This document shows, piece by piece, positions 4,744-29,868 of a stretch of DNA of 32,845 nucleotides (position 1 is its first letter; the number at the start of each line of letters is the position of its first letter). The notes under the pieces were generated by a model. That model was not told where the DNA came from, did not search any database, and was given only the letters and a program-made list of their open reading frames with translations. Source of the DNA: Ruminococcaceae bacterium AM07-15 (lineage in GTDB: Bacteria; Bacillota; Clostridia; Oscillospirales; Butyricicoccaceae); assembly GCA_003477405.1 (NCBI GenBank), contig QUDE01000011.1, positions 1 through 32,845 on the forward strand, written 5' to 3'. Both the position numbers and the translations under genes were made by a program.

Positions 4744-6663
4744 TTACATTACCTTCTGAAACATATGGCGCACCTTGTCCAGGCGGCTGTTTGGACGGCG
4801 GGGCTGGATGACCGGCTGACCGACAGCGGCCTGATATCCTTTCAGCTCTGTAAGGCATACGCTCCGCCCGTTGGTGTAAAAGGCCAGATCAGTACGGTAT
4901 GCCTGTATACAGCGGGCGGGAATCTCGCCAGTAAAGACAACTTCATCCTTTTTTACCTGGGCCGTTTCGATGGTGGCACAGTATTTCGGTGCATCATGAT
5001 AAGCCCTGGAAAGGTATTCCTGGGGCGCATAGAGGATGAAGGAGAGATAAGGTTCCAGCAGCTGCGTCCCCGATTCCTTCAATGCCTGTTCCAATACAAT
5101 CGGGGCCAATGAGCGGAAGTCCGCCGGCGTGCTGACCGGACTGTAATAAAGCCCGTATTCAAAGCAAATCTTACAGTCCGTTACGTTCCAGCCGAACAAG
5201 CCCTGCTCCAGCCCGTAACGGATACCATCCCTGACAGCGTTTTGAAAACTCTGGTTCAAGTATCCCAGCGAAACCCGGCTCTCGTATTGTACACCGGAGC
5301 CAAGCGAGAGTGGTGTAACAGACAGTCCTATGGATGCCCAAAACGGGTTGGGCGGCACCTCGATATGGATGGTGTGGCTGGCTGCTTTGAGCGGCCGCTC
5401 CATATAAATGACGGAGGGTTCCTTTACCACTGTTTCAAGCTTGTATTTTTCCGACAGCAAAGCGGAAACAACCTCCAACTGCACCCGGCCCAAAAAAGAA
5501 AGAATGATCTCATGGGTGATGGAATCCACTTCGCAACGCAAAAGCGGGTCAGTATCCGCAAGTTGCGTAAGAGCGTCCAGCAGCCGTTCTCTTTGCGCTG
5601 CCGTTTTCGGCGCAATCGTCGTCCGCAGCATGGGGAGGGGGTCCTCGCGCCACCTTTTACGAGGGAGCCGGGTTTGGTCCCCTAATACATCGTTTAACCT
5701 CACGCTGTCGCTGGGAAGGATAACAATTTCACCCTGATAAGCGGTGTCTGTCCGAACAATTTCCCCTTTGGATGGAATACGCATCTCTGTGATTTTCAGC
5801 TTTTCTCTCCCGGCCAGGGCCACCGTATCCCGCAGGCGCAGCGTTCCGCTGTATAACCGTAGATAGACACGCCGCTGGCCGCAATCGGTGTACTCAACCT
5901 TGAAAACGCTGCCGCATAGGGCGGCGCCCCCCTGTTCCCCAATCGGTTGGAACAGCCCTGTCACCGCATCCATCAACGGTTGAATGCCAAGGCCATTTTT
6001 GGCGCTGCCATGATAGACTGGGAACAGGGAGGCGTCTTGAACCCGCTGCTGTTCCTCCCGCGCAAGTTTTTCCCGGCTGATTGGTTCTCCTGCGATATAC
6101 TTTTCCAATAATTCATCGTTATTTTCGATGACCGCATCCCATGCTTCTATGTCGGTATTTTCCTCCAGGACTATTTCCGGGGACAGCGACACCGTCTGCT
6201 TGATGATAATATCGGCGGAGAGCTTATCCCGAACAGACTGAACCACGCTCTGCAAATCAACGCCAGCCTGGTCGATCTTGTTGATAAAGATAACGGTGGG
6301 AATGTTCATTTTCCGCAGGGCATGGAACAGAATACGGGTCTGGGCCTGCACGCCATCTTTAGCGGAGATCACCAAGATGGCCCCATCTAAAACAGCCAAA
6401 GAGCGGTACACCTCCGCCAAAAAATCCATGTGGCCGGGCGTATCCACAATGTTGACTTTACATCTGTGCCACTGGAAGGAAGTGACTGCCGCTTGAATGG
6501 TAATCCCACGCTGCCGCTCCAAAAACATGGTGTCCGTCCTCGTTGTCCCTTTTTCGACGCTCCCCGGTTCTGAAATGGCTCCGCTGGCATATAGCAGGCT
6601 CTCCGTCAAGGTCGTCTTTCCAGCGTCTACATGGGCAAGAATTCCAATATTGATTATTTTCAT
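4744..6663 (-). CDS. tet(W): Ribosomal protection tetracycline resistance protein Tet(W)
   Basis: Full-length 639-residue EF-G-like GTPase that removes tetracycline from the ribosomal A site. It shows the G1 loop [12 protein letters not shown] (residues 10-21), switch [14 protein letters not shown] in G4, and the family C-terminal end [14 protein letters not shown]. The N-terminus ([16 protein letters not shown]) and the length match the Tet(W) group. Tet(32) and Tet(O) are close relatives but differ in the first 60 residues as I recall them. ATG 6663 has GGGAGG 9 bases upstream. The upstream leader with an attenuator is intact, so the gene should be inducible. The methyltransferase gene follows after 50 bases. 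Confidence 0.95.
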
Positions 6664-6986: not shown

Positions 6987-7024
6987 GTATCTAAAAGAAA
7001 TTTTTCTTCCCTGAAAATGCTACT

Positions 7025-7064
7025 AATAAGAGTAACAAAGGGTAAACCCCTTGTTACTCTTATT
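7025..7064 (+). terminator. Strong intrinsic terminator at the tet(W)/phage boundary
   Basis: AATAAGAGTAACAA and TTGTTACTCTTATT are perfect 14-base arms around GGG-TAAA-CCC, followed by a run of T on the plus strand. No plus-strand gene lies upstream in the window, so its normal partner gene was probably displaced when the tet(W) segment joined the phage. It ends 30 bases before the first phage gene and would insulate that operon from leftward DNA. Confidence 0.8.
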
Positions 7065-7093: not shown

Positions 7094-7354
7094 ATGAGCA
7101 ACAAATATTTGGGACCCGCGGATCGGCAGCTGATTGCAGAGAAGTGGGCCGCTTATGCGTCGGTGCGGGAGATCGCGGCCCTGGTGGGCGTGGCGCCTAA
7201 AACAATCTATCAGGAATTGCGCCGCGGGAACAATGGCACCCTGGACAAGAACAGCCGCCAGTCATACAACCCCGATCTGGCCCAGCGTCGTTTCCAGGAA
7301 AGCCTCCGCCGGCGCGGAAAGCCCCTGAACAGGGCGCGGGCCGCCAGTGAATGA
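7094..7354 (+). CDS. Phage helix-turn-helix protein, IS30-like HTH
   Basis: An 86-residue basic protein. Residues about 7-45 (ADRQLIAEKWAAYASVREIA then VGVAPKTIYQELRRG) match the helix-turn-helix that begins IS30-family transposases, including the trailing YNPDLAQRRF. There is no catalytic domain, so this is a DNA-binding protein and not a transposase. ATG 7094 is preferred over ATG 7070 because GGAGGTG lies 7 bases before it, while 7070 lies inside the terminator T run. It is the first gene of the early phage operon. It may act as a transcription regulator; that role is inferred. Confidence 0.75.
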   Translation: MSNKYLGPADRQLIAEKWAAYASVREIAALVGVAPKTIYQELRRGNNGTLDKNSRQSYNPDLAQRRFQESLRRRGKPLNRARAASE

Positions 7355-13895: not shown

Positions 13896-14645
13896 ATGGC
13901 CTATGTCCATAGACGGGTAAAGGCTGGCCGCACAATCGAACACAGGAAAATGCAGTCATACCGGATCCACACCAAGGGGGGCCAGAGGGGGCCGAACCAC
14001 GGGACCACATCGGAAAAGCAGGCCAAGATCAACGAGCGGGTGGCAGAAGAACACCTGCGCTGGGACCTCAACGCCAATTTCGGACACCGGGATCTCCACG
14101 CCGTCCTCCACTACTACGCCAAGGACACCAGCTTTGAGGAAATACTGGAACACAAAGCCGTTTTCCTGCGGAACCTGCGGAAGATCTGCAAAAAACGCGG
14201 GATCAAGTACAAGGCCGTGGTGGTCATCGAAACCAAAAGGATGACAAATCCGCACATTCATGTGGTAATAACGCGCATGGACCCGGAGATCATCACGGAG
14301 GCGTGGGAGTTTGTGCCGAGGGGCGGCGGGGGCGTCAGCTTCAAACCGCTGGACCGCCGCGGGAACCATGCAAAGCTGGCGGCCTATCTGGTCAAAGAAA
14401 GCCGGTCAACCATGGAGAAGTACCGGGAGATCGGGAAGCGGGGCAAGAGGTACAGCAAAACACAAAACATGGCCAAGCCCGTGATTACATACACCACCGT
14501 GGCCGCTTCCTCCTGGCGCAAGGAGCCGAAGCCAAGCAAGGGCGCCGTGCTGTACATGTTCGATGACGGATCCACCACGCGGAGCGGGTGGCACGAAATC
14601 AGCGGTTACCCATACCAGGAATATTTCGAGGTTTTCAACGAATAG
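13896..14645 (+). CDS. HUH-type Rep endonuclease (rolling-circle replication protein-like)
   Basis: A 249-residue protein with the motifs of single-strand nicking Rep proteins. The HUH motif is PHIHVVI (H120 and H122), and the catalytic YxxK is AAYLVKES (Y164, K167). The helical stretch HKAVFLRNLRKICKKRG before the VVVIETK strand is typical of the G2P/ORF2-like Rep group found in Clostridia phages and small plasmids. Only one catalytic Tyr is visible. The start has AAAGGAGGAG 8 bases upstream. It opens the second gene block and is preceded by several inverted repeats. Enzyme class is well supported; use in phage replication is inferred. Confidence 0.8.
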   Translation: MAYVHRRVKAGRTIEHRKMQSYRIHTKGGQRGPNHGTTSEKQAKINERVAEEHLRWDLNANFGHRDLHAVLHYYAKDTSFEEILEHKAVFLRNLRKICKKRGIKYKAVVVIETKRMTNPHIHVVITRMDPEIITEAWEFVPRGGGGVSFKPLDRRGNHAKLAAYLVKESRSTMEKYREIGKRGKRYSKTQNMAKPVITYTTVAASSWRKEPKPSKGAVLYMFDDGSTTRSGWHEISGYPYQEYFEVFNE

Positions 14646-27748: not shown

Positions 27749-28083
27749 TGGGCGCCCCTGGCTTCAAGGATCTGGTGGCGGCTGATATTTCCACCGTGTT
27801 TCTAAACGGCCAGGAGTTCGCGGACACCCACACCATAGACGGCAGACCCATGACCGTGGTGGTGGATGAAAACGAACTGCTGGAGCGGGACAAGTCAAAA
27901 ATGGGGATCCAGGTGGATGGGACCTACAAAGCCCGCCGGCTGATCTATGTGGCAAAGGAGGAATATGGACCGCGGCCCGCCCATGGGAAACAGATCAATT
28001 TTGACGGGCGCCTGTTCCGGGTGGCCGACTGCACCGAGGAGGCCGGTATGCTGGCCATTACGCTGGAGGCGGTGAGATCGTGA
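27748..28083 (+). CDS. Head-tail joining (stopper-like) protein
   Basis: A 111-residue protein at the usual position of a head-tail connector. FLNGQEFADTHTIDGRPMTVVVD and a beta-rich end (INFDGRLFRVADCTEEAGMLAITLEAV) resemble gpFII/stopper-type proteins. ATG 27748 overlaps the previous stop (TGATG). The call rests mainly on order and the short strand pattern. Confidence 0.65.
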   Translation: MGAPGFKDLVAADISTVFLNGQEFADTHTIDGRPMTVVVDENELLERDKSKMGIQVDGTYKARRLIYVAKEEYGPRPAHGKQINFDGRLFRVADCTEEAGMLAITLEAVRS

Positions 28084-28685
28084 GCGAAAACGGCGCTATG
28101 CTGGAAATTAACACCCAAGCGGAGATCGAAAAGATCATACGCCAGCTGGACACCCTGCCCAACCGGATGAAAGCCCCCGATGTGCTGGCCAGCGCACTGA
28201 ACGCAACGGCCAACGAAATGAAGCGGAAGATCGGCCAGAGGACCAGAAAACGCTATGCCATCAATGACAAGAAGATCCTGACCGACAAGAAGCGGGGCGG
28301 CATGTATCTGGAGAGAGCCAAGGGGTCCGCCACATCCGCCACGCTGATCTCCAGGGGCGGCATGGTGGAGGCCATGGCATACATGACCAGGAAGAACACC
28401 GAAACCACGGCGGCCATGCTGAAAGTGCTGAATGAAAGCGCCATGACGGCGCTGGAGGTGGACGGGCGAAAAGCCTTTGAAACCACTTTTAAGAGCGGAC
28501 ACACGGCCATTGTGCAGCGCGTAGGCCGCGCAAGACTGCCGGTAAAGTCCCTTATGGCCCCGGCGGTGCCCATGGCATACGGCAAGACCTACGAGGAAAC
28601 CACACAGGACTATTACACCATCCTGCAAAAGCACATCCAGCGGGAGGTGGAGCGGGTCCTGGACGGTTTCGGGAGAGCGGCATAA
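28080..28685 (+). CDS. Tail completion / minor tail protein Z-like
   Basis: A 201-residue protein with a GTG start at 28080 overlapping the previous stop; ATG 28098 is an alternative. IIRQLDTLPNRMKAPDVLASALNATANEMKR and the C-terminal GKTYEETTQDYYTILQKHIQREVERVL are typical of the lambda gpZ-like group, which finishes the tail end that joins the head. It is the last late gene before the reversed gene. Confidence 0.75.
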   Translation: MSENGAMLEINTQAEIEKIIRQLDTLPNRMKAPDVLASALNATANEMKRKIGQRTRKRYAINDKKILTDKKRGGMYLERAKGSATSATLISRGGMVEAMAYMTRKNTETTAAMLKVLNESAMTALEVDGRKAFETTFKSGHTAIVQRVGRARLPVKSLMAPAVPMAYGKTYEETTQDYYTILQKHIQREVERVLDGFGRAA

Positions 28686-28689
28686 AAAA

Positions 28690-28710
28690 GCGGCCCCGCA
28701 GAGGGGCCGC
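28690..28710 (-). terminator. Terminator of the reversed moron gene
   Basis: GCGGCCCC and GGGGCCGC form a perfect 8-bp stem with loop GCAGA. On the minus strand it is followed by TTTTTTATG, so it ends leftward transcription from the reversed gene. In the plus direction no T run follows, so the late operon can read through. Confidence 0.8.
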
Positions 28711-28715
28711 AAAAG

Positions 28716-29276
28716 TCAGCAATTATAAAAATCGTCGCTGGTGTAGCCCATTTGCAGGGCAAGGAAATAAATGTGCTTGCACGGTTTACTGCGTTTATCA
28801 AAATCAGGGCAAGAGCAATAGTCCAGTGTGGTGGTGTATTCCGTTCCGGTGGAACCGCTAACCTTTGCTGTACCGCTGTCCACATCATAGCTGATCAGCC
28901 CCAAACACTCATGGGACGCTTTTTCAAAACGGTCAGACTGGGCCGCCCCACGGTGTACTTTTTCGTTCCATTCCCCAAATGAGTGCCCAATGGGGCAATG
29001 CCGACTATGGATAGAAACAAGTTCGTTTTTTTTACGCGGGAAAATCAGGAAATACGAAACCGTTTCACGGATCGTTTTACTCCCCTCTCTCCCCTCTATC
29101 GTGCGCAGTTCGCTTGTATTGCTTACGGGATGTTTCTTTTTCCACTGGCTATATGCAACCAGGGCAGCGGCGAGTAAGACACCGCCTCCAAATGACTGCA
29201 CCTCCCCGGTAAACAGGCACCCAAGCGCGAGAACGAGAACGACACCAGCGGCAATATACAGCCCTTTCCCTTTCAT
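28716..29276 (-). CDS. Membrane protein with SWIM zinc finger, phage moron
   Basis: A 186-residue protein on the strand opposite to all other phage genes. Residues 5-22 and about 29-45 are two hydrophobic helices (GLYIAAGVVLVLALGCLF; GGGVLLAAALVAYSQW). A soluble part follows that ends in a SWIM zinc finger: C154-x-C156, then C166-x-H168 (CSCPDFDKRSKPCKH). SWIM fingers bind DNA or proteins. A membrane-anchored one is uncommon, and I know no function for it. ATG 29276 is chosen because GGGTGG precedes it; the upstream in-frame ATGs lack such a site, and one (29417) lies upstream of the promoter. It has its own consensus promoter and terminator, so it can be expressed in the lysogen independently of the late genes. 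Confidence 0.8.
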   Translation of the reverse strand: MKGKGLYIAAGVVLVLALGCLFTGEVQSFGGGVLLAAALVAYSQWKKKHPVSNTSELRTIEGREGSKTIRETVSYFLIFPRKKNELVSIHSRHCPIGHSFGEWNEKVHRGAAQSDRFEKASHECLGLISYDVDSGTAKVSGSTGTEYTTTLDYCSCPDFDKRSKPCKHIYFLALQMGYTSDDFYNC

Positions 29277-29345
29277 TTTACCACCCTTTCCATGCTCTTT
29301 TATGCTGATTATTACCATACTTTTCTGAACATTAACACAACCGTA

Positions 29346-29374
29346 ATTATAGGGAAGAAACGGTAAAAAGTCAA
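29346..29374 (-). promoter_or_regulatory. Consensus promoter of the moron gene
   Basis: On the minus strand TTGACT and TATAAT are 17 bases apart, a near-perfect vegetative promoter 70 bases before the moron start. Its -35 box overlaps the ribosome site of the plus-strand tail gene that begins at 29389, so the two directions interfere at this point. Confidence 0.85.
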
Positions 29375-29388
29375 GGAGGCGCAAGCAT

Positions 29389-29868
29389 GTGACCCAAGAA
29401 TTTTTGCAGGACGCCATGGTGGCGGACCTAAAGGCGCTTTTTGCCCATGAGAGGCTGAAAAACTCCCTGGGCGTCGAGCGGGAGATCCAGATCTACCCAC
29501 AGGATGTGCCGATCCGGGAAAGCGACGATGAAGCCATGGACAGGGAGGCGCCGCCGGAGCCTTATGTGGTGGTGCGCCTCCGGGGAGGAAAGACCGAAAG
29601 CGACGATGACCCGCAGATCATTGACGCGGTGCTGGTGACCTGTGTCTACGACCCCGATCCGGGGCGCCAAGGCTACCGGGACGCCCTGCACATCATCAAC
29701 AAAATTTATCATCACTATTCCGCCTGCGCCGTGATCGGCAACCGATGGGAAGTCCTTTACCCTATGGAGTGGACCACCCAGGAGGAGGACACACACCCGT
29801 ACTATTTCACGGCCATGTCCCTGCGGATCCAGGCGCCGGCGGTCCACAAGGAGGTGCCAGAAGCATGA
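29389..29868 (+). CDS. Tail-region protein (tail terminator/completion-like)
   Basis: A 159-residue protein with a GTG start at 29389 after AAGGAGGCG. A segment of strands and helices such as PYVVVRLRGGKTESDDDPQIIDAVLVTCVYD, in two parts, followed by DALHIINKIYHHYS, resembles the Gp37/tail-terminator group placed before the sheath gene. The final VHKEVPEA is coupled to the next gene through an ATGA overlap. Confidence 0.65.
   Translation: MTQEFLQDAMVADLKALFAHERLKNSLGVEREIQIYPQDVPIRESDDEAMDREAPPEPYVVVRLRGGKTESDDDPQIIDAVLVTCVYDPDPGRQGYRDALHIINKIYHHYSACAVIGNRWEVLYPMEWTTQEEDTHPYYFTAMSLRIQAPAVHKEVPEA

Follow-up and report, generated by a model that had tools for sequence, protein, structure and literature searches.

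A reversed membrane-SWIM gene in the tail region of a gut phage as putative exclusion cargo with possible control by the phage's own regulator

Introduction

The tail region of a temperate-type, contractile-tailed phage in Ruminococcaceae bacterium AM07-15 contains one gene that reads against its structural neighbors and encodes a protein with two predicted membrane helices and a C-terminal SWIM zinc finger. What does such a gene do for the phage, and when is it expressed? A sequence-only reading of the 32,845-nucleotide stretch of DNA containing the locus (hereafter, the window) had described the promoter, terminator, and domains of the gene and had interpreted it as a likely lysogenic-conversion gene, open to expression in the dormant phage.

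In the accessible text of an earlier report (PMC5512222), the prokaryotic SWIM proteins mentioned are SWI2/SNF2 ATPases, which are also present in phage mobile systems. In contrast, the window protein is small, has a predicted membrane hairpin, and contains no enzyme domain. Judged by titles and the beginnings of abstracts, none of the open-access journal articles found on SWIM in prophages, phages, or lysogens, on bacterial SWIM/SNF2 proteins, on phage HIRAN proteins, or on a repressor or superinfection in Lagaffe deals with the arrangement of the present gene.

Results

Below about position 7000, the window consists of an integrative element, including a tetracycline-protection-type gene (4744–6663, minus strand; labeled by inspection of its translation). 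The right part is the left 25.8 kb of the phage, in which terminase, capsid, and tail sheath genes were assigned using PHROGs. The phage appears to be inserted in or beside the element carrying the tetracycline-protection-type gene. Two relatives collinear with the window phage, the prophages of genomes G001 and G215, both possess an IS30-family transposase, and that of G001 is 49% identical to the transposase of FP_Lagaffe. On sequence grounds, the window phage may be grouped with the IS30-transposase phages (Dulem virus 34 and FP_Lagaffe), the window representing its left end and stopping before the transposase. The window also ends before the XRE gene of its own phage, and only the repeats described below are visible in it. 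Direct repeats of 15 bp flank the prophage in G001 (L048/L024/L046) and G215 (L047/L025/L049); IS30 elements generate shorter ones. According to the accessible part of its description, Lagaffe has an IS30-type integrase, new for large prophages, and direct repeats on both sides (PMC5883640).

Homology to the G001 prophage begins at window position 7012 and is followed by a terminator-like hairpin (7025–7064) and a gene for an 86-aa HTH protein (7094–7351), which by eye resembles the N-terminal part of the IS30-type transposase encoded at the opposite end in G001. This arrangement recalls Mu, in which the repressor and the transposase share an end-binding domain. The sequences flanking the G001 prophage resemble, by inspection, two parts of one minus-strand surface-protein gene.

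The reversed gene (28716–29276, minus strand) is intact, with 186 codons from an ATG at 29276 to a TGA at 28716. It lies between a plus-strand tail-completion/Neck1 gene on the left (28080–28685; phrog_27, 1.3e-16) and a plus-strand gene for a virion structural protein with a GTG start on the right (29389–29868; phrog_2581, 3.2e-27). It is indeed the only minus-strand gene among the structural genes, as stated earlier, but other minus-strand genes are located to the left of the phage, below about 7000. Hydropathy analysis located hydrophobic segments at residues 6–22 and 26–42, and the structure model placed helices at residues 4–23 and 27–48. Membrane association is predicted from these two results, with two transmembrane segments within residues 6–43 (29148–29261, minus strand), and lysine residues on both sides of the segments suggest a hairpin with a cytoplasmic C-terminus. 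The SWIM finger, C154-x-C156...C166-x-H168 (28773–28817, minus strand), matched PF04434 with an E value of 7.6e-8 and 32.2 bits, above the curated cut-off of 19.6, and the CxCx(n)CxH pattern is present. In an 18-member alignment, C154, C156, and H168 were invariant, and C166 was conserved in at least 90%. The dN/dS value against G001 was 0.075 (dS 1.135), compared with 0.145 and 0.093 for the two neighbors, indicating purifying selection and thus a real, constrained protein. The GC content is 0.499, versus 0.583 and 0.598 in the neighbors. Beyond the SWIM finger, no above-threshold family was found for the membrane-plus-SWIM protein in Pfam, PHROGs, PADLOC, or NCBIfam, and PADLOC gave no family at E ≤ 1 for the protein and two homologues. 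These results agree with the earlier view that the combination is not a described system.

An 8-base A tract is present in the coding strand (29026–29033), and three database forms of the protein (P0016, P0017, and P0045) lose the frame near there. The tract may represent a slippage site, decay, or a sequencing error; further truncated database forms break elsewhere. In P0063, from a 1461-base contig, the neck gene is joined in frame to the SWIM end, a fusion that requires an inversion and is probably an assembly chimera.

The gene is preceded by a sigma-70-type promoter, TTGACT-17-TATAAT (29346–29374, minus strand). It is the sole 11/12 match in the whole window, and such matches occurred at a rate of 0.05 per sequence in 40 Markov-1 sequences of the composition of the phage part. 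The −35 box (29369–29374) shares 2 nt with the ribosome site AAGGAGG (29373–29379) of the tail gene starting at 29389, as had been claimed. Past the stop codon, an intrinsic terminator (28690–28710, read from 28710 to 28690 on the minus strand) consists of a stem with 8 GC pairs followed by T6 on the minus strand only. On the plus strand, the stem is followed by AAAAGTCAGC, and by our own reading the terminator should therefore stop only the minus-strand transcript. The promoter, the terminator, the two predicted helices, and the SWIM finger of the sequence-only reading were thus all recovered from the sequence, Pfam, and hydropathy analyses.

A protein search using the SWIM protein found 63 homologues, and 11 distinct loci (14 rows, with L006–L009 forming one group) place the gene in the same slot. 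The SWIM gene opposes the neck gene in all 11 and the tail gene in all nine loci where the latter was found, so that the homologues are not co-oriented structural genes, an outcome that would have contradicted the original proposal. A promoter-like site matching 9 to 11 of the 12 positions is found at the same place in 9/9 distinct loci with upstream DNA, and by inspection a GC-rich stem with a T-run lies 3′ of the gene in 10 of the 11, with a shorter stem and T-run in L064. No membrane helix was predicted for the SWIM protein of L064, nor for that of L067, a locus outside the slot.

Directly past the −10 box of the SWIM gene are tandem repeats, TGTGGTAATAATCAGCAT, with a 20-bp period. The first copy, TGTGTTAATGTTCAGAAA (29322–29339, minus strand), is the weaker one and begins 6 nt past the −10 box; the second, TATGGTAATAATCAGCAT (29302–29319, minus strand), lies exactly 20 bp beyond it and has one mismatch to the consensus. 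With up to three mismatches allowed, the consensus matched twice in the window, against 0.04 expected, the second match being located inside a gene at 14261. The repeat was found 4–10 nt past the −10 box and before the ribosome site in 9/9 SWIM-slot loci, L063 having the weakest, and a second copy follows exactly 20 bp onward in seven of the nine. The scoring matrix was built partly from the sites of the same loci, and its scores are partly circular, so that the whole-genome pattern searches described below carry more weight. The matrix also gave moderate, unexplained sites elsewhere in G001 and G215, and no match near the left-end early genes of G001.

In order to avoid selection for SWIM, the slot was also searched by means of the tail gene. 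Among viral contigs, 25 loci were found, forming 15 clusters at 97% identity, and the slot was visible in 14 (L036 in this count being the contig of L005). Eight of the 14 distinct slots contain SWIM, four contain other membrane-anchored or lipoprotein-type proteins, an HTH-TPR protein fills one more, and the last is empty, its neck and tail genes being 12 bp apart (12–13 bp across empty slots). The other reversed slot genes with a membrane anchor or lipobox are those of L300, the L305/L306 group, the L311 group, and L315. The reversed HTH-TPR gene is that of L296, labeled by inspection, with its HTH part also matched. An operator-like site is located 4–10 nt past the −10 box in 10 of the 13 filled slots and was absent from the remaining three, those of L296, the L305 group, and L309; in L309, the SWIM gene is broken in frame and has an 11/12 promoter. 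The complete annotated record of Dulem virus 34 shows a lipoprotein-type slot gene with the same promoter and operator-like repeats. Eleven loci from genome contigs, several of which are phages already counted among the viral contigs, showed SWIM in five (L321, L322, L324, L325, and L329), a membrane-anchored protein in three (L327, L328, and L330), a small protein with no evident anchor in L326, and an empty slot in L320, the slot of L323 being off the contig. The titles of the genome contigs include Intestinimonas, Colidextribacter, Pseudoflavonifractor, and uncultured Oscillospiraceae. The slot is thus polymorphic and can be empty, as expected of cargo, and the HTH-TPR protein and the L326 protein indicate that membrane location is not universal.

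In relatives, the repeat motif connects the SWIM promoter with a small XRE-type regulator gene that adjoins the transposase gene. Four phages with a SWIM gene, namely G001, G215, IMGVR 3300031555_000155 (G752), and MT835543, have the motif in both places, upstream of XRE and at the SWIM promoter. In the 3.6-Mb genome of G001, the pattern GTGNNAATARTCAGCA with up to one mismatch matched twice, each time exactly and within the prophage, once at the SWIM promoter and once 19.5 kb away; the backwards control also matched twice, and it is therefore the location of the sites, not their number, that is informative. In the 3.0-Mb genome of G215, the same pattern gave four matches (an exact one at the SWIM promoter, a one-mismatch site 19.4 kb away, and two elsewhere) and the control none. 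In both genomes, the second site immediately precedes an 80-aa XRE-type gene (HTH_3), followed by the IS30-family transposase, and these two are the last genes of the prophage. A search of 12 phage records using GTGNNAAWRNTCWGCA gave matches in all 12, against one match overall for the control. Ten of the records include the XRE gene, and nine of these have two sites 52–53 bp apart before it (one of the two carrying a mismatch in G760), with a single site in G756. G752 and MT835543 contain the XRE pair and the SWIM pair in the same record; in G752, the atypical forms GGGAATA and GTAAATA are present at both the SWIM and XRE sites, and two more one-mismatch matches lie elsewhere.

In G733, the SWIM gene, whose product lacks a membrane helix, and an XRE gene diverge directly and share two motif copies; the SWIM promoter, TTGACA-17-TATATT, is immediately followed by an operator-like site. 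This 3.2-Mb genome contained 51 matches at up to one mismatch, against 6 for the backwards control (at one mismatch the controls are not clean, as the two in G001 and the six here illustrate), but the only two exact matches are those between the SWIM and XRE genes. The type of XRE recognition helix tracks the type of motif where a motif was found: XRE proteins with ..ERD.ISR.. accompany the present motif, and those of the QKA type (..QKA.SR..; Lagaffe and G086) accompany GTCATSTTTRGGATAA pairs 54–55 bp apart. Five other XRE genes, four of the GQMA type and that of L089, showed no motif pair upstream. We infer from these correspondences that the XRE protein is the binder of the repeats, whose position at the start site implies repression. 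The lack of matrix matches near the early genes of G001 suggests that XRE regulates the integration module and the cargo, not the early lytic genes.

A SWIM profile search further provided 17 loci outside the slot. In eight of them (L011, L027, L030, L066, L069, L070, L072, and L073), an HTH gene precedes and an integrase gene follows the SWIM gene on the same strand, sometimes with genes between, both being confirmed by Pfam. An integrase is present in L028 and L065, where the gene before SWIM has no HTH match, and at the contig start in L032. The HTH gene alone is found in L026 and L071, and both genes are missing from L029 and L068. In L031 and L067, SWIM and XRE are divergently oriented and accompanied by an IS30-type transposase. 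In L070 (3236–4957), two SWIM fingers are fused to an Mrr_cat restriction-type nuclease between the HTH regulator and the integrase. This gene, for which PADLOC gave a weak match with the ZorD nuclease end, is a candidate defense gene. The L031 protein combines DUF4236, a TM2 domain, and SWIM. Among nine distant relatives besides L031 and L067, three have one hydrophobic segment and six have none.

In IS30 phages where no SWIM was seen, the gene divergent from XRE encodes a single-helix membrane HIRAN-type protein in L078, L081, and L085 (L082–L084 look identical to L081), a zinc-ribbon-like protein with two helices in L080 and L086 (by inspection), and other types in L079, L088, and L090. G755 contains an additional HIRAN-type gene that runs against the surrounding structural genes and has an operator site upstream of its promoter. 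The HIRAN assignment derives from one homologue, L149, narrowly above the Pfam cut-off (PF08797), and from moderate fold similarity to solved HIRAN domains that are parts of HLTF and Rad5. HIRAN is a different domain from that of the window protein, but a membrane-anchored HIRAN-type protein replaces SWIM under the same motif in these phages. The comparable module of FP_Lagaffe (gp33/gp34/gp37) combines an IS30 transposase with the XRE-type gp34 and with gp33, which is directly divergent from gp34 and alone among the 65 listed genes lies on the minus strand; the operator-like sequence there differs from the window-type motif. In one comparison, gp33 resembled the C-terminus of the SWIM-slot protein L064 (29%, E = 7e-11). 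No Pfam match at E ≤ 0.01 was obtained for gp33, indicating that it has no SWIM.

Discussion

The slot and its polymorphism, the promoter, and the motif common to XRE are read from the sequence, and the membrane-plus-SWIM architecture is predicted from it. The gene resembles a moron in having its own promoter and terminator and in being accessory and variable between related phages. In relatives, SWIM is tied to the lysogeny module by the motif common with XRE, by divergence from XRE, or by a position between HTH and integrase genes. We presume that the gene probably serves in exclusion of, or immunity to, competing phages rather than as part of the virus particle; the more specific reading, a membrane-anchored exclusion or immunity cargo repressible by the phage's own regulator, has in our estimation about an even chance of being correct.

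In the mechanism that we propose, the SWIM gene would be the occupant of a polymorphic cargo slot in the IS30-transposase phages that infect Oscillospiraceae-type gut bacteria. A sigma-70 promoter presumably needing no phage activator would read it backwards out of the late region, and the small XRE-type regulator, encoded with the transposase, would bind the tandem repeats at the start site and turn the gene down. In a newly infected cell that contains no XRE, the promoter would be strongly active immediately, and the SWIM protein would be made early; the rising XRE would then turn down itself, the transposase, and the cargo. A low, autoregulated level would be expected in the lysogen, with the gene strongly on whenever the regulator level falls. 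Late transcription of the tail operon would cross the gene from the other strand and silence it. The topology and the exclusion function that we infer would place the hairpin in the membrane and the finger in the cytoplasm. As a presumptive DNA reader, the SWIM finger would most likely act against competing DNA entering the cell at the membrane (superinfection exclusion or immunity).

The lysogenic-conversion proposal stands in part: the gene is accessory, but the start-site repeats argue for repression in lysogens and against a classical always-on exclusion gene. Similarly, the independent promoter and terminator would permit expression in the dormant phage, but the repeats matching those upstream of XRE point to repression, and expression in lysogens may be low or absent.

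The same tie to XRE could instead mean that the SWIM protein works in the lysis-lysogeny or integration switch, as a Cro- or antirepressor-like partner of XRE or as a modulator of the IS30 transposase. The motif common with XRE, the direct divergence in G733, and the distant relatives lying between an HTH regulator and an integrase are all consistent with such a role. The same slot or operator position can, however, be empty or contain unrelated products (lipoprotein-type, TM proteins whose domains presumably face outward, and TM-HIRAN), and a core part of the switch should not tolerate such exchange; we regard this role as rather unlikely. The lipoproteins and the presumably outward-facing TM proteins, which cannot touch cytoplasmic DNA, also speak against an entry-phase helper or counter-defense protein that is made on injection before XRE is present, shields the incoming genome at the membrane from host nucleases, and is then turned off, unless the jobs of the occupants differ. 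A promoter that looks strong without a phage factor and bears repressor-type repeats would suit such a helper, as would a membrane anchor combined with a SWIM or HIRAN-type domain, known from nucleic-acid enzymes, but we consider it unlikely.

A moron for host fitness unrelated to phages, with a stress, envelope, or surface function, would account for the accessory position, the GC content below that of both neighbors, and the polymorphic occupants. The link with the integration regulator, together with the relative in which SWIM is fused to an Mrr nuclease, points to DNA conflict instead, and this explanation seems quite improbable to us. The location among tail genes might also suggest a structural or morphogenesis protein of the virion. 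The reversed orientation in every distinct SWIM-slot locus, the separate promoter and terminator, and the slots left empty with neck and tail genes adjoining make this very improbable.

For an exclusion or immunity cargo, the nearest working precedents seem to be Ltp of phage TP-J34 and SieA of P22, which probably target the injection apparatus. Ltp, as described in the accessible text on this Streptococcus thermophilus phage, is a lipoprotein of the lysogeny module that is transcribed from the prophage and prevents DNA injection (PMC3952083). Like Ltp, the SWIM protein would be a small membrane-attached cargo tied to a repressor-integrase module, and lipoprotein-type genes occupy the same slot in relatives; unlike Ltp, its SWIM finger is predicted to face the cytoplasm, and its gene lies in the tail region, the comparison being one of descriptions, not sequences. 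P22 SieA, in the corresponding part of its report, is a small inner-membrane protein with a putative promoter of its own that blocks DNA delivery, and no SWIM domain is mentioned there (PMC10883804). The window protein is likewise small and predicted to be in the membrane, and its gene has its own promoter, a likeness again of description rather than sequence.

Elsewhere, SWIM and HIRAN-type domains are accessories of SWI2/SNF2 enzymes. It is tempting, though tentative and in our view doubtful, to generalize that the IS30-transposase phages possess a regulator-controlled slot for membrane-anchored nucleic-acid readers of the SWIM or HIRAN type, which would stop or hold entering phage DNA. If true, this would represent a DNA-recognizing type of superinfection exclusion, unlike SieA or Ltp. 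Should the reading as regulator-controlled exclusion or immunity cargo be correct, the presence of TGTGGTAATAATCAGCAT beside a −10 box would help to read off such cargo in this group of gut phages, much of which is annotated merely as hypothetical, and two orphan architectures, membrane-SWIM and membrane-HIRAN, would be tied to one job. That reading would also supply a regulator and operator that can be tested directly, along with a few exchangeable proteins from phages of gut commensals as candidates for exclusion.

Two minor observations concern the slot proteins and their neighbors. The slot genes of L300, L306, and L311 have a common stretch like ADVMNGFGTEKIGEWGYIEISKTDM; L306 and L311 gave no PADLOC match. 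A protein with a CCSRY/CCSRF-like N-terminal signature, for which two tested members gave no Pfam match at E ≤ 0.001, recurs beside SWIM or slot genes (L066, 8916–9680, minus strand; L068, 4079–4804, minus strand; L028, 9250–9960; and L305, 524–1255, minus strand).
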